A DNA stretch of 64,000 bases from Candidatus Dadabacteria bacterium (GTDB lineage: Bacteria; Desulfobacterota_D; UBA1144; Nemesobacterales; Nemesobacteraceae): NCBI GenBank assembly GCA_009840385.1, contig VXNX01000005.1:62001-126000 (forward strand), written 5' to 3'. A program made the translations under genes and the position numbers. This document shows, in pieces, positions 4,557 through 62,282 of the stretch. Positions within the stretch are counted from its first letter, which is position 1. Every line of letters starts with the position of its first letter. Below the pieces are notes generated by a model that had not been told where the DNA came from, did no database searches, and worked only from the letters and a program-made list of their open reading frames with translations.

Positions 4557-5906
4557 ATGAAAAACGCTATCGTACTTTGTTCTGGCACGGGAACAAATGG
4601 TGAGGATCTGTCCGAATTTCCGAGTGAATCGATAGCGCAAGTCCCCCAACTCAAAAGAATCATAATAAATTGCCAGCGTGTCGGGGTCGAGCAGTTTCAT
4701 ATCATTACCGACAACGCGGGTTTTCTGAAAAACCTTCTTATAGATGATCCGAGGATTACATCGGACATAAACTGGGTCTTGCCCGGAGAGTCCGTGTCGA
4801 TAGATTCGGAGAGAGTACTTGTTCTAGAATCTTCCCTTGTTGTTACGAATGCAGCTTCTCTTGAGAAATTCGTTCGTGATTCGGTTGACTGTCGAGAAGA
4901 CGAGATTTCCGTCCTGGTTAACAAGGGTGCTGATCCTGTTATCGGTATGGACAGGGAAACAGGTTACGTAAATAGGTATTTCGGAGGAGGGAGTGGTGTT
5001 TTAGGCGCTTTTTCCATAAATTCCACGGAAGTTACCACAGTTCTTTCGGCCACCGGGCTTGATACCTGGCTTGACGAAGAGGCTAAACGGCACCGCATGA
5101 GAATCTTCGGCGGCGACAGTGGATATTGGTACCGTCTTTCTGATACGGCAGAATCTCGAAAAGAAGCGGAAAGAATCATCTTTTCTCACGTAGGTAAAAC
5201 GGCTACGGGATGGATAGCCAGAAATATAAACGGCAGGATGTCTCTTCCCCTGAGCAAGCTTCTGATAAGAACGTCTCTTACACCTAACGCGGTAAGCGTT
5301 CTGATTAACCTGATCGGGGTGCTCTGCGGCCCGTTTTATGCTCTTGGCCATCCGGTGCTCGGAGCTCTTTTCATGCAGGTGGCAACCGTTTTGGACAGAT
5401 GTGACGGGGAAGTTGCGAGAATAAAGCTTATGGAGACCAAGAAGGGACAGTGGGTTGATACGATAAGTGACCAGTTCACCGTGCTTTCTTTTCTGATCGG
5501 AGTTCCTGTTGGGTATTACCTTCAGACCGGAAGCACCGTTGCGGTCGTGCTCGGAAGCTACAACGTCATCGTTTTCATCCTGTTTCTGATATGGTCGTTT
5601 TACTTTTTGATAAAGTACACGAATTCCGGCAGTCTGGTTGCCTACTTTGAAGTTGACAAGCACATTGATCCCGAGGAACTCTCCTTCCTGAGAAAGCTGA
5701 TTGCCCGAATGCGTCCCTTGGGGAGGAGGAATTATTATTCGGCCATATTAGTCCTCATAGCGATAATCGGAGGAAACTCCCTCGTTCTTTTCGCTACATC
5801 TTTTACACTGACTCTCTTTTTGCTGCATCAGCTTGAAGATGTTGTAAGGATTTTCCGTCTTGGAAAACCCGAAGAGGTTTTTCATGAAGAAACGGAACAG
5901 AGTTAA
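4557..5906 (+). CDS. Degenerate nucleotidyltransferase domain fused to CDP-alcohol phosphatidyltransferase
   Basis: 449 residues. The C-terminal half (about 235-440) is a polytopic CDP-alcohol phosphatidyltransferase with a perfect DGxxARx8GxxxDxxxD motif: Asp283, Gly284, Ala287, Arg288, Gly297, Asp301, Asp305. The N-terminal half (1-210) has the layout of the nucleotidyltransferase domain in bifunctional inositol-1-phosphate cytidylyltransferase/DIPP synthases. Its signature loop, however, reads CSGTGTNGEDLSEF and lacks the Arg and the PK pair, so catalysis there is doubtful. The intact enzyme upstream probably substitutes. The product could be a phosphodiester lipid or solute. Confidence 0.82.
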   Translation: MKNAIVLCSGTGTNGEDLSEFPSESIAQVPQLKRIIINCQRVGVEQFHIITDNAGFLKNLLIDDPRITSDINWVLPGESVSIDSERVLVLESSLVVTNAASLEKFVRDSVDCREDEISVLVNKGADPVIGMDRETGYVNRYFGGGSGVLGAFSINSTEVTTVLSATGLDTWLDEEAKRHRMRIFGGDSGYWYRLSDTAESRKEAERIIFSHVGKTATGWIARNINGRMSLPLSKLLIRTSLTPNAVSVLINLIGVLCGPFYALGHPVLGALFMQVATVLDRCDGEVARIKLMETKKGQWVDTISDQFTVLSFLIGVPVGYYLQTGSTVAVVLGSYNVIVFILFLIWSFYFLIKYTNSGSLVAYFEVDKHIDPEELSFLRKLIARMRPLGRRNYYSAILVLIAIIGGNSLVLFATSFTLTLFLLHQLEDVVRIFRLGKPEEVFHEETEQS

Positions 5907-5942
5907 TCCAGAAGCAATACAGTCCGGTTCCCAACTGGGGTA

Positions 5943-5962
5943 AGAGCATGCTTTTTGCTCTG
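5943..5962. terminator. Weak inverted repeat between convergent genes
   Basis: AGAGCA and TGCTCT pair around a short T-rich loop. It lies between the plus-strand CDP-alcohol transferase and the minus-strand symporter operon. No long U-tract follows on either strand, so a terminator role is tentative. Confidence 0.25.
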
Positions 5963-5979
5963 TTTCTGCGCTGTGATAA

Positions 5980-6078
5980 TTATTTGGGATTTCTGTGGAA
6001 TTTTATAAGACAGAAAGAGAGAAGAGACAGGACGCTCGCCCAAGAAATGAACATGAAGAGTGCAGAAGCAAAATCCAT
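5980..6078 (-). CDS. MetS-like small subunit of the adjacent NSS-family symporter
   Basis: A 32-residue protein. Its ATG shares one base with the symporter stop codon (TAATG) and is preceded by a strong GGAGG inside the symporter's last codons, so it should be translationally coupled. The peptide starts [13 protein letters not shown], has one hydrophobic helix of about 22 residues and ends in a basic tail (KFHRNPK). Single-helix proteins of this size, encoded directly after neurotransmitter:sodium symporters, are known as MetS-type small subunits required by methionine/alanine importers. The assignment rests on size, topology and position. Confidence 0.75.
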   Translation of the reverse strand: MDFASALFMFISWASVLSLLSFCLIKFHRNPK

Positions 6079-54396: not shown

Positions 54397-55425
54397 GTGC
54401 GCACGATTTCTAAAGCAAATATTGATCAGCCTTCCTGCTGCCACACCCCTCCTCCGGGCGAACCTCTTCGAGTCAGCCGAAACCTGAAAATTTCTCTTGC
54501 GTTACTTCTCTGTCTGGTTGCCGTTTCCTTCCTGCCGCCGCTTTCGGCTCTTAATACTTCTCTGCTGGGTTATCTGAAGCTGCTTGCCATCCCGCTTATT
54601 GTGGGTTTTCTTCTGGGCGGAGCCGTAGATTATTTCGTTCCCCAGGGGTTTATATACAGGTATCTTGGCAGAACGGGGAATTCATCTCTCTTCTACGCGC
54701 TTGCTTCGGGTTTTGTAATGTCTTCCTGTTCCCATGGAATACTCGCAATAGCGATTCAAATCTACAAAAAAGGAGCAGGCGTCCCGGCGGTGATAACGTT
54801 TCTTCTCGCCTCTCCCTGGGCGAATTTCCCCGTGACCATCCTCCTTATAAGCTTTTTCGGGTGGAAGGGTGTTCTGTTCATAGTCACGGCTGGATTTATC
54901 GCGATTGTTACGGGCTTTATATTCGGAATACTTGAACGGGGCGGCTACTTGGAGAAAAATGATGTCGGGGACATAGAGGAAGGGTACGAGTGGGAGAGGA
55001 TAAAGAATTTCTCCCTCAGAGAGAGCGTCCCGGGGGTTCTCAGGGGAAGCCTCAGTCTTTCCAACATGGTTCTGTGGTGGCTTATAATCGGCCTTATTGC
55101 AGCGGTCCTGATAGACGTGTATGTGCCCGGAGAATTTTTTATGCAGTATCTTGGTCCGGACACAGGCGGCCTTTTACTTACCCTCGTAGGGGCTACCGTG
55201 ATCGAGGTTTGCAGCGAGGGAAGTTCGGTTATTGCGTTTGAGATCTACGACAAGGTCCAGGCATTTGGGAATCCGTTCGTTTTTCTGATGGCGGGGGTTG
55301 TGACCGACTATACTGAGATCGGACTTCTATGGACGAACATAGGCAGAAAAACTGCCTTACTGCTTCCAGTAGTGGCTGTCCCGCAGGTGCTTTTCTTCGG
55401 CTTTCTCTACAACGCTTTTCTCTGA
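54397..55425 (+). CDS. YraQ/ArsP-type permease (DUF318 family)
   Basis: 342 residues from a GTG at 54397 with a weak ribosome site. Eight to ten membrane helices arranged as an inverted repeat, each half carrying the family pattern: SSCSHGILAIAI in the first and EVCSEGSSVIAFEI in the second. Relatives export trivalent organoarsenicals or other metals and thiols. A cytosolic leader with a Cys-Cys pair (PSCCHTPPPGE, near 12-22) could be a metal site. It precedes tag by 18 bases. Confidence 0.82.
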   Translation: MRTISKANIDQPSCCHTPPPGEPLRVSRNLKISLALLLCLVAVSFLPPLSALNTSLLGYLKLLAIPLIVGFLLGGAVDYFVPQGFIYRYLGRTGNSSLFYALASGFVMSSCSHGILAIAIQIYKKGAGVPAVITFLLASPWANFPVTILLISFFGWKGVLFIVTAGFIAIVTGFIFGILERGGYLEKNDVGDIEEGYEWERIKNFSLRESVPGVLRGSLSLSNMVLWWLIIGLIAAVLIDVYVPGEFFMQYLGPDTGGLLLTLVGATVIEVCSEGSSVIAFEIYDKVQAFGNPFVFLMAGVVTDYTEIGLLWTNIGRKTALLLPVVAVPQVLFFGFLYNAFL

Positions 55426-56752: not shown

Positions 56753-56829
56753 GCGCCCGTAGCCCAACTGGACAGAGCGCTTGACTACGGATCAAGAGGT
56801 TGGGGGTTCGAATCCCTCCGGGCGCGCCA
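56753..56829 (+). tRNA. tRNA-Arg (anticodon ACG)
   Basis: Acceptor GCGCCCG / CGGGCGC, discriminator G, encoded CCA. The anticodon stem CTTGA/TCAAG encloses CTACGGA, anticodon ACG, which is normally edited to ICG. The TTCGAATC loop is present. Confidence 0.97.
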
Positions 56830-56892
56830 TTCTTCAATATTAGACGCATTTACGAATCTATCAAACGGTTTTTTCAAGGGGCGAGGTATAAC

Positions 56893-56909
56893 AAAGGGTT
56901 AATCCCTTT
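56893..56909. repeat. Perfect short hairpin downstream of tRNA-Arg
   Basis: AAAGGG-TTAAT-CCCTTT. There is no U-tract on either strand. It may help end tRNA-Arg transcription or be an operator; nothing else is recognised between 56830 and 57029. Confidence 0.3.
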
Positions 56910-57029
56910 AGCTCTAGGTTCGAAAATACAAAGTTCATCAACCGGCGTCTTTGTTCAAAAGTTCCAAGCTTAAAGGCATCGTATGCGCCAGAAGCCATTT
57001 TTGTTGACACCGGCCTTCTACCTCCACCG

Positions 57030-57248
57030 TCACGTGCTTTGGCTTATGACATAATTTTTGTTAGTAAAATAATTCATAATATTAGACACGGTCCACGCGG
57101 ATGCAGCTGACAATTGCAGGCAATCACCCAGTTCAAATGATCCGTAAACAATAACGGAAGTGAACCAAGACAAACTGGCAATCAATTGGCATAACCATTG
57201 TATACTTATATTAGCCTTAACTTTTTTCTGAACTAATTCTTCTTGCAT
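57030..57248 (-). CDS. Small two-helix membrane protein coupled to the flavoprotein
   Basis: 72 residues. Its ATG overlaps the flavoprotein stop as TGATG, so the two should be cotranslated. A charged N-terminus (QEELVQKKVK) precedes two hydrophobic segments, about 17-37 (WLCQLIASLSWFTSVIVYGS) and 44-60. No family is recognised. The coupling suggests it anchors or partners the flavoprotein. A+T-rich like its partner and unlike the surrounding genes. Confidence 0.65.
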   Translation of the reverse strand: MQEELVQKKVKANISIQWLCQLIASLSWFTSVIVYGSFELGDCLQLSAASAWTVSNIMNYFTNKNYVISQST

Positions 57249-58366
57249 CAGCAAACACACTCCTCTCCGCAGCAGCTCAAATCATCTAGGTAGAGACCTT
57301 CATTACGATATGGCTCAAGCAGCGTTGTATCCATACCCAATCGTTTTCCAATTGCATTAGCGACAACACCAAACCTCTGCCGATACTTATAAATAAAACA
57401 AAAAATAAGATCATCATGACGAACTTGTGGACCAACGAGAAACAATCCAGGAGTTTTGGTTGATTCATCCTGCTCATTCAGCAAACAATAAGCTTTATTT
57501 TTTTCCCAATTAAACAAGTCTTTAATGACGACCAAACTACTTTTAAATCCTGTTGCCAAAATGGGTGGTGTGGCACTTTGATAAGGCAATGATTTGCCTC
57601 TGACGTAAATCAAATACTTGCCCTGCTCCAACCTTATCTCCCTAACCATGGATTTACCAACAAGCTCAATCCTATTATAAGTCATTTCTTGCTTCAGCCT
57701 CTCCAACGTAAAAGGCGATAAGTTTTCACTTGGGTCAGTTGTTTTTTTACTCCAACGCGCATCGCGGTCTAATACACGAACCTTTTTGCCCAATCGACTT
57801 AAATGGATAGCTGCGTCAATGCCACTCTCATAACCGCCGATAATATAAATTTCATCGCCTTTAACGTGTTCCCAGCTTTTCACTCGGCTGTTATGCAGAC
57901 ACAATTCAGCACCTGGAATAGAATTTGTATTCGGGTATTGAAATTCTCCGGCCGCCCAAATCAAAAAGCGAGACTCTATCGGCTTTCCTTCAGTAATGTG
58001 AACCTTAAAAGAACCTTCAGAATAAAGCACCTTCTCCACATTTGCATGTTCAATAACCGGCAAATCAAAATATTCTGATACAGCTCTTAAATACAGCGCA
58101 TACTCCTTGCCGGTAGGGTGTTCCTTTCGAAGCATATATGCTGGCGAGGTTCCGGATATAACCGCATTAAGGTCAAGATGACCATAAAAATTAGTTGTAA
58201 ATGAGGGGGTTAAGAGTTGCATTTCCTTCGGCCATTTGTCGAAAGTCGCGCCGACTTCTTCTCTCTCAAGAACAGTCATTCGCTTTATACCCAAGTCCTT
58301 AAGCATAGCAGCAACCCCTATCCCCGCCGGACCGGCTCCAACAACAACAACATCAAATTGTCTCAT
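57248..58366 (-). CDS. FAD/NAD(P)-dependent oxidoreductase with cysteine-rich tail
   Basis: 372 residues. The N-terminal dinucleotide fold VVVGAGPAGIGVAAML binds FAD and a second one, IYIIGGYESGIDAAIHL, binds NAD(P). The layout resembles CzcO/YpdA-type flavoproteins. The last residues are CCGEECVC: four cysteines in eight positions, suitable for metal or redox chemistry. The gene is clearly more A+T-rich than flanking genes and lies between tRNA-Arg and the zinc locus, which suggests horizontal transfer. Substrate unknown. Confidence 0.83.
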   Translation of the reverse strand: MRQFDVVVVGAGPAGIGVAAMLKDLGIKRMTVLEREEVGATFDKWPKEMQLLTPSFTTNFYGHLDLNAVISGTSPAYMLRKEHPTGKEYALYLRAVSEYFDLPVIEHANVEKVLYSEGSFKVHITEGKPIESRFLIWAAGEFQYPNTNSIPGAELCLHNSRVKSWEHVKGDEIYIIGGYESGIDAAIHLSRLGKKVRVLDRDARWSKKTTDPSENLSPFTLERLKQEMTYNRIELVGKSMVREIRLEQGKYLIYVRGKSLPYQSATPPILATGFKSSLVVIKDLFNWEKNKAYCLLNEQDESTKTPGLFLVGPQVRHDDLIFCFIYKYRQRFGVVANAIGKRLGMDTTLLEPYRNEGLYLDDLSCCGEECVC

Positions 58367-58504
58367 CTCTCTAACCTCCTAACGTTTCATATTGAAAGGA
58401 TTTACTTAACGACAACTGTTTCATTGAAACATTCCTGATATAGAGCATTGATCGATACGCAGCTTTTAACGGTAACATTGAGTTGGTCCGCAAATTCCTT
58501 GCTA

Positions 58505-58512
58505 GGGCGCGC
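58505..58512. repeat. Possible attachment-site remnant matching the tRNA-Arg 3' end
   Basis: GGGCGCGC followed by AT repeats the end of tRNA-Arg (56820-56827). The two copies bracket the A+T-rich flavoprotein patch. Eight bases is short and no integrase is present, so this is only a hint. Confidence 0.25.
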
Positions 58513-58526
58513 ATAATAAACTCTTC

Positions 58527-59288
58527 TTAAGTTTTCTGACCCCAGTTCGCTATCCGAACCCCTCGTATAATCAGGGCCGTTGCGGTATATGACAGGATGA
58601 TGATCGGTCCGGCGGGCATATCAAGCGCTACGGCGAAGGCAATACCGGACAGAACCCCCGCCACTCCGCAGAGCCATGCAATAGGGTATGGCCGTTTGAC
58701 TTGTACCGCGGCCAAAGCCGGGAGTATAAGGCTTGCGAAGACTACGTAAACGCCGACCAGTTGAACCGATGAAGTGATGGCGAGAGCGAAGATCAGATAA
58801 AACCCCATGTTGTTTCGCACCTCCGGTTTGGAAAACCAGGCCAGCAGTATCAACGCGTAAATGGGCGCGTGTTTCGCTACATCTGTCCATGTCACAAACA
58901 GCATCTGTCCCGAAAGCAGGTGCTTTACCTCCTCTCCGCCGTGGGGATGATCGGCCAGCAACAGAAGCGCCAGCGATGCGGCAAGCACGAAAGTGCACCC
59001 TATGATTGCCTCCTGTCGCTCTGGCATTGCAGTTTCCACCTTGCGGAAAAACAGCCCTGCTGCGACCGCGCAACCAAGCGCTATGAACTGGATCAGCCAC
59101 GGAGACGGATCATGGATAAACATGTTGCCGACCACAAGCCCGAGGCCCGCAATCTGCGCCACCGCAAGATCAATAAAGATGATGCCGCGGCGGAGCACTT
59201 CAATGCCCAGGGGAGCGTGGGTGAGCGCAATCATGAGGCCGGCAGCCATTGCCGGCCCGATGATTTCCAGAAGTTCACCTGTTAACAT
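58527..59288 (-). CDS. znuB: Metal (zinc/manganese) ABC transporter permease
   Basis: 253 residues, about eight membrane helices of the ABC-3 family. Typical parts are THAPLGIEVLRRGIIFIDLA near 24-43 and SVQLVGVYVVFASLILPA. A DHPHGGEEVKH loop may touch metal. Its start overlaps the znuA end by 14 bases. No ATPase gene follows; the next material downstream is the A+T-rich patch. Confidence 0.92.
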   Translation of the reverse strand: MLTGELLEIIGPAMAAGLMIALTHAPLGIEVLRRGIIFIDLAVAQIAGLGLVVGNMFIHDPSPWLIQFIALGCAVAAGLFFRKVETAMPERQEAIIGCTFVLAASLALLLLADHPHGGEEVKHLLSGQMLFVTWTDVAKHAPIYALILLAWFSKPEVRNNMGFYLIFALAITSSVQLVGVYVVFASLILPALAAVQVKRPYPIAWLCGVAGVLSGIAFAVALDMPAGPIIILSYTATALIIRGVRIANWGQKT

Positions 59289-60210
59289 GATATGTTTCTT
59301 TCAACAAAGCTATAGTCCTGTCAAACAGTGCAAACAGATCGCCGCTCTGTTCGTCGCCGCCAACGGTGTAAGGAAGCACGATTGCCCTTGTCCCGGTTTT
59401 TTCCGACAACCATTCACTCGCGTCATCCGGATCGTAAGGAGTACGGATAATCACGTCCGCCGGGCTGCTTCTTAACTCTCGCAGCAGATTCTTCAGGTGA
59501 GAAGTTGTCGGCGGAATGCCGGGTTTTGGTTCAAGTGTTCCCACTCGTTTCATTCCAAGCCAGTCAATCAGATAAGTAAACGATTGATGATGAACCACAA
59601 CCGGTTTTCCTTTAAGCGCGGCAGCCTCGGATTCCCATCGGGAAATCGCAGCGCGAAAACGCGACGAAAAATCCCGGTAGCTATCCTTATAAAAAGAGGC
59701 GTTTTCAGAATCTATCCTCGAAAGGCGGTCGGCGAGAGCCTCACCCACCGTCATCAGGTTGTACGGATTCAGGTGCACGTGGGGATTGCCTTCCGGATGT
59801 ATATCTCCCATGCTGCGGTCGACCACAACCGGGACTTCAAGCATGGTGACCAGGTCTGCCGCCATAAGGTGACCGATTGAGCCGGGTTGCAGGTCTGAGC
59901 TTGCCTTCCGAACCAGAATCGGAAGCCAGCCTACCTCAAGACTTGCACCCGAGCAGAGCAGCAAGTCGGCTTTGCGCGCTTTGGATATCAGGCTAGGGCG
60001 CGCCCTTATATAGTGTGGATTCTGCACGGCCGAGGTAGCCGAAAACGCTTCCACCTTGTCACCGCCGATTTCTTGGGCCAGCGCCGCCCATTCCGGTTCG
60101 CAGGCAAATACTTTTACCTTCTCTTGATCAGAAGCGGCGAAAGCGGGGATGTGAGAAAACGGCAAAACGGCAAAAAACGCGGTTATGACCGCGAAACGTA
60201 ATATATTCAT
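59275..60210 (-). CDS. znuA: Zinc ABC transporter substrate-binding protein with borrowed signal peptide
   Basis: 311 residues, AGGAGG before the ATG. The mature protein is a cluster A-I metal receptor; ligand candidates are His in QNPHYIRA, His in GNPHVHLN, His in VVHHQSFTYL and Asp in PYDPDD. It captures periplasmic zinc for ZnuB. Residues 1-28, including the signal peptide, are almost identical at protein and DNA level to the start of the outer-membrane protein encoded at 62282. Family-like sequence begins only at KVKVFACEPEW. A degraded copy of that same segment with a different leader lies at 60655-60796. Confidence 0.92.
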   Translation of the reverse strand: MNILRFAVITAFFAVLPFSHIPAFAASDQEKVKVFACEPEWAALAQEIGGDKVEAFSATSAVQNPHYIRARPSLISKARKADLLLCSGASLEVGWLPILVRKASSDLQPGSIGHLMAADLVTMLEVPVVVDRSMGDIHPEGNPHVHLNPYNLMTVGEALADRLSRIDSENASFYKDSYRDFSSRFRAAISRWESEAAALKGKPVVVHHQSFTYLIDWLGMKRVGTLEPKPGIPPTTSHLKNLLRELRSSPADVIIRTPYDPDDASEWLSEKTGTRAIVLPYTVGGDEQSGDLFALFDRTIALLKETYHVNR

Positions 60211-60285: not shown

Positions 60286-60570
60286 TTAGGAGGAAAGGGG
60301 AGGTCCGCGAGTAATTCCCGCTTCGCAAGTGTCCCGAACGACGATAACGTCACCGAACGGCTGCGGGACGTGCTGTGCGCGGTGAAGAACACGGACTTCA
60401 CTCGTGGCGCCGGGATCTGTATAGTCCTGATACTTGGCGTTCAGGCATATCTCGCATTCAGTTCCCTCATGCTTGTGCTCCCGGGAACCGCACTCGGCTG
60501 CATGGGCAAAGGAGAGCATCTGCGCTCCCAGAAAGGCGATTGTAAGCAATAAGGAAAATGTTCTGCTCAT
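60286..60570 (-). CDS. Small secreted Cys/His protein, DUF2946-like, copy 2
   Basis: 94 residues from the ATG at 60570, chosen to match copy 1; an in-frame ATG at 60576 is also possible. A signal peptide ending AHA precedes EHKHEGTECEICL, an HxH-x4-CxxC arrangement suited to zinc or copper, and a C-terminal RGPPLSS. It is a recent duplicate of the gene at 62361 (same length, most residues conserved). It precedes znuA and shares the duplicated operator upstream. Confidence 0.75.
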   Translation of the reverse strand: MSRTFSLLLTIAFLGAQMLSFAHAAECGSREHKHEGTECEICLNAKYQDYTDPGATSEVRVLHRAQHVPQPFGDVIVVRDTCEAGITRGPPLSS

Positions 60571-60582
60571 CTGCATAGTTAA

Positions 60583-60599
60583 ATGAGAAATATTATCAT
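60583..60599. promoter_or_regulatory. Fur-family-like operator, copy 2
   Basis: ATGAGAA-ATA-TTATCAT, an imperfect palindrome whose arms extend to AAATGAGAA / TTATCATTT. It lies between the -10 region and the small secreted-protein gene and is homologous to 62658-62674. Zinc-responsive control by a Zur-type repressor is inferred from the genes it serves. Confidence 0.5.
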
Positions 60600-60603
60600 T
60601 TAG

Positions 60604-60809: not shown

Positions 60810-62282
60810 TTAGTATTTATGCGCGGCGTGGGCACCTATGCTCATTATGTACTGGAGCAGGAACTGGTTGTCGCTTAGGTCCTCTCCCAGTTTTTCGTGA
60901 TTGTACTGAAGGCGTATGCGGGAGAACTCGCTGTTTGACCAGTCTCCCATGACCGCTACCGCGTAAGGATCGTGATCTATCCCAGAATCCTCGGGAGAGT
61001 ATATCTGGGAATAGCGGGCGCCGATTCTCCATTTCGGCGAGAACTTGAAAACCCCTTGCGCGTACCATCCGTGGCTTCCTCCGTCGAGGTGCTCTTCGTG
61101 GACCTCGCCTCCTTCCTCAAGAGTGTAGACGCCTTCTTCGTCACGCCAGAAATACTCACCCTGGAGAAGCACCTCTTTCTGGTGGTTATTTCCAGTGGGG
61201 GCCCAAACGTAGCGAAAATCAACCGCGTAAAGCCTCGTGTCACCCGTGAACATGCCGGCGGCGAAGAACTCCCCGAGATTCTCCCCGTGTTCGTCTTCGT
61301 GTTCGTGTTCATGCTCGTCTTCGTGCTCATGTTCGTCTTCGTGTGCATGCTCGTCTTCGTGCTCATGTTCGTCTTCGTGCGCATGCTCGTCTTCGTGTCC
61401 ATGTCCGCCGCCGCGACCGCTTGCCTCTCCGTCAAGCAGATAGCCCCCGATTCTCCAGGATGAATTCTCTCCTATGTCACCGCCTACCCGCAGGAAGGCG
61501 CTGAACGAGTTTATGTCGCTACCCTCAGCCCCTGCAAACGGGAAATCGTCTCCGCGGAAAATACCGCCTCCCGCCTCGACATAGAAGTCGGTCGGAAGCA
61601 CGTATGAAATCTGCGCTCCGGTATCATTAAAGGCCTTGTCGAGAAACACCCTGTAAGGCAAGGGGCGATCGGCGAAATCGTCAGCGTGGGCGTGATGCTC
61701 GTTCATGTATCCCAGAGTCCAGAACGCGCGGCCCATTCTTATGGTCGCGCCCGTTGGAAGCCCGAAACCTGGAAGGGTCTCTACGTATGCTTCCTCAAGC
61801 TCGATCTCGACCCCGTCTCCATGGTCTGCAAGAGCCGTGGTTATATGGCCGTAGAATTTATGGTCAACACTTGTCGAAAAATTAAGTTCGGTTTCCCCAA
61901 GAGATATTCCTTCCGCCCCACGTTCCCCCTCGTGTCCCAGGACGAACCCGGGAATTTCGCCCTCATCCGAAGAAAAGGCGGCGAATCGTCCGCCCAGTAT
62001 CGCTCCGATTGAAGGGTTGAGGCTCCTGTCGTAAATGGCTCTGCCTGGGTAGACGCTATCCTTGCTCTTTGAGTAAGTCGTTTTGGCCTGAGATGCTTCG
62101 GTTTCCATCTCGGCGAGCTTTTCTTCCATCTTTAAAATCCGGTTCTCATATTCCGATCTCATCTCTTGTATCTCCTTCTTTAAGGCTTCTACCTCCTGGT
62201 CGGAAGCGGCGAAAGCGGGGACATGAGAAAACGGCAGAACGGCAAAAAACGCGGTTATGACCGCTAAACGTAATGTATTCAT
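60810..62282 (-). CDS. Outer-membrane beta-barrel protein with coiled coil and His-rich loop, zinc-linked
   Basis: 490 residues. A signal peptide ending AFA is followed by a coiled coil (about 30-65, EVEALKKEIQEM onward) and a barrel that begins near residue 80. The layout resembles porin-like proteins with a periplasmic coil. Residues about 292-332 form a loop built of His, Glu and Asp repeats (HEDEHAHEDEHEHEDE pattern), encoded by a tandem DNA repeat. Such a loop can gather zinc at the cell surface. It is second in the locus, behind the Cys/His secreted protein and before the znuA remnant. Confidence 0.82.
   Translation of the reverse strand: MNTLRLAVITAFFAVLPFSHVPAFAASDQEVEALKKEIQEMRSEYENRILKMEEKLAEMETEASQAKTTYSKSKDSVYPGRAIYDRSLNPSIGAILGGRFAAFSSDEGEIPGFVLGHEGERGAEGISLGETELNFSTSVDHKFYGHITTALADHGDGVEIELEEAYVETLPGFGLPTGATIRMGRAFWTLGYMNEHHAHADDFADRPLPYRVFLDKAFNDTGAQISYVLPTDFYVEAGGGIFRGDDFPFAGAEGSDINSFSAFLRVGGDIGENSSWRIGGYLLDGEASGRGGGHGHEDEHAHEDEHEHEDEHAHEDEHEHEDEHEHEHEDEHGENLGEFFAAGMFTGDTRLYAVDFRYVWAPTGNNHQKEVLLQGEYFWRDEEGVYTLEEGGEVHEEHLDGGSHGWYAQGVFKFSPKWRIGARYSQIYSPEDSGIDHDPYAVAVMGDWSNSEFSRIRLQYNHEKLGEDLSDNQFLLQYIMSIGAHAAHKY
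61286..61404. repeat. In-frame tandem repeat encoding the His-rich loop
   Basis: About three copies of a 36-base unit, itself made of 18-base half-units, encode HAHEDEHEHEDE and variants. Being a multiple of three, unit gain or loss would change loop length without frameshift. Confidence 0.75.

Follow-up and report, generated by a model that had tools for sequence, protein, structure and literature searches.

The last two genes of a ZnuA-ZnuB metal-uptake operon in Candidatus Dadabacteria encode a flavoprotein and a coupled microprotein, which we interpret, with a probability of roughly 0.55, as a module for metal starvation, in which a flavoprotein whose cysteine tail is conserved is combined with a membrane-partner slot, filled here by the microprotein. 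The pair was studied in a stretch of 64,000 nucleotides, referred to below as the window. An undescribed membrane-associated redox module had been suggested in the preliminary description of this DNA, and this suggestion is supported within the limits of the Pfam and NCBIfam family libraries; a search of the literature found no text that names either the pair or the microprotein family.

The operon and its two terminal proteins

Both open reading frames of the preliminary description, a flavoprotein ending CCGEECVC and a 72-residue protein joined to it by TGATG, were confirmed, and ORF analysis of the window places the flavoprotein stop and the small-gene start within the same TGATG. The two genes are co-directional with those for the ZnuA-like and ABC-3 proteins and are therefore the distal genes of the series orf94-OMP490-orf96-znuA-znuB-flavo-small (Table 1). 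No ZnuC ATPase was found in this operon, and the best candidate in the genome (C9, 36% identity) has no ZnuB-like gene in the 3.7 kb examined with it.

Table 1. Features of the operon and of its surroundings in the window.
Feature	Position	Strand	Evidence
tRNA-Arg(ACG), downstream of the small gene, on the opposite strand	56753..56829	+	neighbour conserved in relatives
72-aa microprotein, predicted helical hairpin; stop ends at 57030, ATG at 57248	57030..57248	-	ORF, AF2
Flavoprotein, FAD/NAD(P)-binding oxidoreductase, 372 aa, tail DDLSCCGEECVC	57248..58366	-	Pfam Pyr_redox_3, PDB 3d1c
ZnuB-flavoprotein gap; contains the second GGGCGCGC (58505-58512)	58367..58526	-	
ABC-3 metal permease (ZnuB-like), upstream of the flavoprotein	58527..59288	-	Pfam ABC-3, E 2.1e-17
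ZnuA-like periplasmic metal-binding protein	59275..60210	-	Pfam ZnuA, E 1.9e-37
96-aa CEICL protein, first gene of the proximal transcription block	60286..60576	-	ORF; conserved in the genus
Fur-family-type palindrome AATGATAATATTTCTCATT, directly upstream of orf96-znuA-znuB-flavo-small	60582..60600	-	exact match
490-aa outer-membrane-type protein (OMP490), His/Glu-rich stretch	60810..62282	-	ORF; co-conserved with ZnuA/ZnuB

The segment 60286-62645 is a duplicated unit, with CEICL proteins of 96 and 94 aa, each behind a Fur-type palindrome (60582 and 62657); a single-copy form of this unit, without the flavoprotein pair, was found in four other znu operons of the genus. OMP490, which adjoins ZnuA and has a nearly identical 30-residue signal peptide, contains a repeated HEDEHAHEDEH stretch that is likely to be a metal-binding loop. 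On the other side of the pair, at 54397-55425, two genes before the tRNA region, lies a permease of the ArsP_1/SaoE-like type, which is conserved in the genus, carries a CCHTPPPG stretch near its N-terminus and scores below the specific NCBIfam cut-offs.

The flavoprotein matches the Pfam Pyr_redox_3 model with an E-value of 1.7e-92, and the structure closest to it is PDB 3d1c, both in sequence (E 2.6e-65, residues 2-372) and in fold (TM 0.88/0.91); 3d1c is also ranked first by Foldseek, followed by YpdA. By this full-length sequence and fold match and by its C-terminal CCxxxCxC, the flavoprotein belongs to the 3d1c-type family. The tail pattern recurs as CCEVSCTC in the S. aureus protein itself (NP_373108.1, 'flavin-containing putative monooxygenase'), whose PDB entry title reports no function. 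We know of no small partner gene of the S. aureus protein; its relative on an S. arlettae plasmid is followed by a 'nucleoside recognition domain' gene and not by a microprotein. In the AF2 model (pLDDT 90.9) the parts of low confidence are the loop 58-61 and the last four residues, 369-372, the latter fitting a mobile C-terminal tail. C323, C366, C370 and C372 are invariant in an alignment of 40 rows, C366 falling to at least 90% once plasmid rows are added; the tails are altered in the flavoproteins of Klebsiella and Verrucomicrobia, and the first cysteine of the tail pair is missing in some from Chloroflexota. In idea, the cysteine tail is comparable to those of MerA or thioredoxin reductase.

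Membership in two characterized families was rejected. The score against the ArsO model (NF040505) is 57.9 bits, with a cut-off of 425, and that against the YpdA/Bdr model (TIGR04018) is 94.8 bits, with a cut-off of 339.9. YpdA/Bdr shares the two-Rossmann FAD/NADPH fold (TM 0.69-0.76), but it carries Cys14 where Ala14 is nearly invariant in the family described here, and the cysteine tail of the query is disordered in the model. This likeness in fold, the nearest after 3d1c, to a bacillithiol disulfide reductase, together with the conservation of C323 and the tail cysteines, is what speaks for a stand-alone thiol reductase acting on low-molecular-weight or protein disulfides, which would be induced by metal starvation because the loss of zinc exposes thiols, and which the microprotein would only anchor or stabilise, replacing no transporter. 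An excerpt of PMC6591457, however, identifies the active cysteine of YpdA as Cys14 in GGGPC14G, precisely the position taken by alanine here, and with a TIGR04018 score so far below the cut-off we find a reductase of this kind rather unlikely. Weak matches to the Lys_Orn_oxgnase and FMO-like Pfam models, along with the ArsO-like match far below its cut-off, might instead indicate a flavin monooxygenase working on a small metabolite, e.g. in metallophore synthesis, with the microprotein as an export or membrane helper; yet no metallophore synthesis genes are present among the neighbours identified, the conserved terminal cysteines would be left unexplained, and we judge such a role very unlikely.

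The small protein had been described as a two-helix protein, which agrees with the AF2 model (helices 4-36 and 40-71, at a modest mean pLDDT of 69), but the window copy is clearly hydrophobic in the first helix only. Its 17-residue hydropathy maximum on the Kyte-Doolittle scale, which like the positive-inside rule is general background, amounts to 1.62 in helix 1 vs 0.68 in helix 2, while the medians over 46 members of the family are 1.53 and 1.27, respectively. The N-terminus contains on average 4.2 K/R residues and the loop has K/R in just one of the 46 members, which fits an inward-facing N-terminus. The family, whose members range from 60 to 100 aa, is predicted from sequence to reside in the membrane, though with its weakly hydrophobic second helix the window copy could be a peripheral hairpin. 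Ten residues are invariant in the 46-row alignment (Q21, A24, S25, W28, S31, D42, Q45, A48, W52 and N56), and the polar ones among them, spread along both helices, would argue against mere anchoring; such a set exceeds the needs of an anchor and in this respect, too, disagrees with a stand-alone thiol reductase. Scans of the 46 members against Pfam and NCBIfam gave chance-level matches only, so the family is unnamed in both, and no GTPase or Gate domain was detected in them by Pfam beyond chance level. A PDB profile search with the family likewise stayed at chance level (best E 0.15, mostly importin-alpha segments).

Partners of the flavoprotein in other genomes

One scan of genome contigs yielded 62 flavoprotein loci, eight of them in the genus of the window or collinear with it. 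The microprotein was found directly downstream of the flavoprotein in 50 of the 62, from Chloroflexota to Poseidoniales archaea, and the coupling that the preliminary description had proposed to seek in other genomes is therefore strongly supported. In 43 of the 50 loci a start codon of the small gene and the flavoprotein stop overlap; the exact start is uncertain, since the first start codon at or after a point 12 bases ahead of the stop was accepted. Among the 12 loci without the microprotein, three are cut by a contig end (L048, L065 and L071). The place of the microprotein is taken by a FeoB-like protein in four (L040, L046, L047 and L062) and by a transporter of the SBF family in another four (L066-L069), assigned through a Pfam match in L067 and through clustering in the remaining three; L057 has a different small protein there that looks hydrophobic. 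At five plasmid loci that were inspected, the microprotein is absent downstream (0/5).

Within the phylum of the window (57 genomes), the flavoprotein is present in 18 genomes, the microprotein in 17, and both in 15; the exceptions G032, G039 and G042 combine the flavoprotein with a FeoB-like partner. In G054 the small gene persists without the flavoprotein, directly behind an apparent TonB-dependent receptor (L148, around 5847-6014), and G044 contains a relic that joins the initial residues of the flavoprotein in-frame to the end of the microprotein (L150, around 5058-5186). A second sample, 200 genomes from the phylum of L055 (by title a Gemmatimonadota MAG), was searched with the microprotein profile; the microprotein was found in nine, with the flavoprotein alongside in 9/9 (L177, at a contig end, shows just the tail) and ZigA upstream in 8/9. 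The profile search alone thus gave 26 small genes, accompanied by the flavoprotein in 15/17 cases in the window's phylum and in 9/9 in the second sample.

The position behind the flavoprotein is occupied by different proteins in different lineages. Bacillota, Enterobacterales, haloarchaea, one cyanobacterium and some of the MAG lineages have a FeoB-like GTPase-Gate protein as the partner, and four alphaproteobacterial loci have the SBF-type transporter. The hairpin is the partner in the window and in lineages that include marine and sponge ones and extend from Chloroflexota to Poseidoniales. These FeoB-like ('nucleoside recognition') proteins of zinc clusters resemble the microprotein in lying downstream of the same flavoprotein, but they are about 390-560 aa long, have GTPase and Gate domains in the two that were scanned, and are not detectably similar to it in sequence. 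With the FeoB-like protein of G032 as the query, the 57 genomes of the phylum were searched, and so were 49 genomes that contain other loci; these represent 49 of the 62 loci, after removal of those of the genus, of the sister family and those cut by contig ends. The protein was not detected in any of the 55 genomes that have flavoprotein plus microprotein (15 + 40), and was detected in 7/12 with the flavoprotein and without the microprotein (3/3 + 4/9), counts that are not independent, as the partner types follow lineages, and that include many incomplete MAGs. Four more genomes of the phylum, lacking this flavoprotein, gave matches of 26-29% that resemble ordinary FeoB. The gene order in L020, flavo-C11-small-HisI, parallels flavo-C11-FeoB-like-HisI in G032, and in L020 a duplicate of the flavoprotein tail, 26 codons long, stands before the small gene, as though the junction that couples the two genes had been preserved.

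Given that the microprotein bears no recognisable likeness to the FeoB-like protein, the case for a shared slot rests on position and exclusivity, and with lineages that are not independent and MAGs that are incomplete we infer it without a p-value. We hold it with moderate confidence that the microprotein and the FeoB-like protein share a partner slot, and the former may act as a working substitute for the latter. The transporter-like nature of the partner genes elsewhere also runs counter to a flavoprotein acting alone as a thiol reductase. We found nothing pertinent in the literature on FeoB-like proteins together with Zur.

Other genes recur near the pair. A conserved protein of roughly 180-200 aa with a QQxWxxGxD motif adjoins the flavoprotein or small gene at L020 (7234-7788) and L141 (3576-4124) and is also present at L043, L045, L047, L052, L054 and L059; a Pfam scan of one member gave no match. 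At L041, L049 and L053 the small gene is followed by a further FAD-NAD(P)-binding protein (NAD_binding_9 in the single copy scanned).

Age and origin of the pair in the genus

The region had been regarded as a transferred, A+T-rich patch that begins behind tRNA-Arg(ACG) and is closed by a repeat of the tRNA 3' end. Its composition is indeed foreign: the GC content is 0.421 for the flavoprotein gene and 0.361 for the small gene, vs 0.488 for the window, and when codon usage was computed, the flavoprotein had the lowest GC3 of the 50 long ORFs of the window (0.379; mean 0.547, sd 0.052), and no other of these ORFs had a codon score as deviant. The tRNA and both copies of GGGCGCGC, the first at 56820-56827, are present as described, but their meaning as island boundaries did not survive comparison. 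The octamer occurs five times in the window vs 1.85 expected (at least five in 5 of 100 shuffles), and in all nine relatives with the same arrangement it is missing from the ZnuB-flavoprotein gap. A possible peptide frame in that gap was also dismissed, as the frame is not conserved in relatives.

The pair is found at the position seen in the window in 9 of the 13 genomes of the genus (G000, G002, G003, G005, G007, G008, G009, G010 and G011, counting G009, where the locus is split across two contigs, and G005, where the adjacent ZnuB is broken). The contig of G012 stops just past tRNA-Arg. G001 and G006 lack the pair, and G004 has it in a different cluster, with tRNA-Arg and the znu operon on separate contigs and unrelated genes beyond; no clean empty junction was found among the genus genomes. 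A recently arrived genomic island at tRNA-Arg, bounded by the 8-base direct repeat, would account for the low GC, the codon usage and the patchy occurrence in the genus. It is nevertheless extremely improbable and was rejected, for the repeat is common in the window and 0/9 relatives with the pair keep it at the far boundary, the location is the same in most of the genus, and no recognisable integrase or other mobility gene exists among the ORFs of at least 60 aa listed between 56830 and 58526.

Other parts of the transfer proposal, namely foreign composition and codon usage, patchiness and the tree, did hold. Two contigs labelled Rhodothermales carry a flavoprotein copy of 81% identity whose GC is below that of its own surroundings, and these copies are sister to the clade of the window in the flavoprotein tree (98/90), which is not cleanly congruent with the phyla; the flavoprotein of G004 groups with Chloroflexota at weak support (94/52). 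The shared place in nine of the 13 genomes means that any transfer must be old, and the most foreign codon usage of the window ORFs, taken with the two genomes that lack the pair, makes an old horizontal movement plausible; any direction assigned to it would be a deduction. One contig labelled Candidatus Poribacteria (L014) is collinear with the genus of the window, has a flavoprotein about 94% identical and is probably misbinned.

Metal context and a possible mechanism

A link to metal, merely called conceivable in the preliminary description, turned out to be much stronger, through zinc neighbours and Zur boxes. At least one recognised zinc-starvation gene lies within about 6 kb at 27 of the 54 loci outside the genus: COG0523/ZigA at 22, a Fur/Zur family gene at 17, ZnuA, ZnuB and HisI at five each, and CysS, FolE2, S14 and L33 at one each. 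At the other 27 no recognised zinc gene was seen in the stretch examined, several of these loci lying on short contigs, and for loci of 12 kb or more the count is 15/32. All nine annotated plasmid regions have zinc-starvation neighbours, and seven of them a Gate/FeoB-like gene downstream. Six exact Zur boxes, TGTTATANTATAACA, are spread over four of the 50 regions (L029, L034, L037 and L135) vs none in 40 dinucleotide shuffles, and with up to two mismatches there are 25 vs 9 in simple shuffles; the Zur and Fur consensus patterns behind this search are general knowledge. In L034 and L037, which have no further recognised zinc gene in the vicinity, the exact box precedes the flavoprotein by about 60 bases; Klebsiella and Pantoea have imperfect boxes 34-39 bases upstream. 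Across the relatives, the association of the module with zinc is well supported.

Expression in S. aureus points in the same direction. In the table rows examined in PMC5480029, calprotectin induces S. aureus SA2368 (COG0523), SA2369 (hypothetical) and SA2370 (FAD oxidoreductase) 43-, 83- and 152-fold, respectively, and SA2370 is likely the 3d1c protein. An excerpt of PMC7174638 names the flavin-containing monooxygenase MSMEG_5022 among regulated genes. The COG0523/ZigA zinc-starvation clusters outlined in part of PMC2770081 (Haas et al. 2009) have a neighbourhood of COG0523, Zur and zinc-independent paralogues in common with the loci studied here, and the consulted portion of its main text mentions neither this flavoprotein nor its partner.

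In the window itself the metal may be a different one. The palindrome AATGATAATATTTCTCATT, an exact match where 0.14 are expected at up to three mismatches, recurs in relatives within the genus and looks nearer to a Fur than to a Zur box, and ZnuA and ZnuB of the window score below the zinc cut-offs of NCBIfam, so that iron or manganese is possible as the metal of this operon. In that case the module would have moved out of a zinc setting and into an operon under Fur control, with a box that differs from the exact Zur boxes seen in sister lineages. On the other hand, sister-family loci with ZnuA-flavo-small stand beside Zur and have Zur boxes, and within the same genus G004 keeps the pair in a cluster Zur-COG0523-HisI-flavo-small-ZigA; we think a switch to iron or manganese unlikely.

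For the metal-starvation module, the likeliest mechanism would be a redox-linked hand-off of zinc. Its first part would be a soluble NAD(P)H:FAD oxidoreductase of the 3d1c family, with a mobile cysteine tail and the invariant C323 in its C-terminal part, and its second an integral-membrane partner, either FeoB-like or SBF-type or, as here, a helical hairpin of 60-100 aa. Under starvation for zinc (or a related metal) the flavoprotein would dock on the membrane partner and use NAD(P)H to keep the cysteine tail reduced, and the reduced tail, a putative metal-binding site, would accept the metal as it enters and deliver it to a metallochaperone, e.g. ZigA/COG0523. It is quite improbable, though conceivable, that a multimer of hairpins forms a pore which does the job of the 390-560-aa FeoB-like transporter, its path lined by the in-helix Gln, Ser, Trp, Asp and Asn, with the NAD(P)H-reduced tail pulling zinc through or off.

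The structure of this flavoprotein family has been solved since 2008, under a title that assigns no function, and its putative S. aureus member showed the top calprotectin induction among the rows examined in PMC5480029. The analysis adds a widespread microprotein family that is missing from Pfam and NCBIfam, and the link to zinc starvation, the cysteine tail and the interchangeable membrane partners together turn an orphan oxidoreductase into a testable hypothesis of metal uptake.
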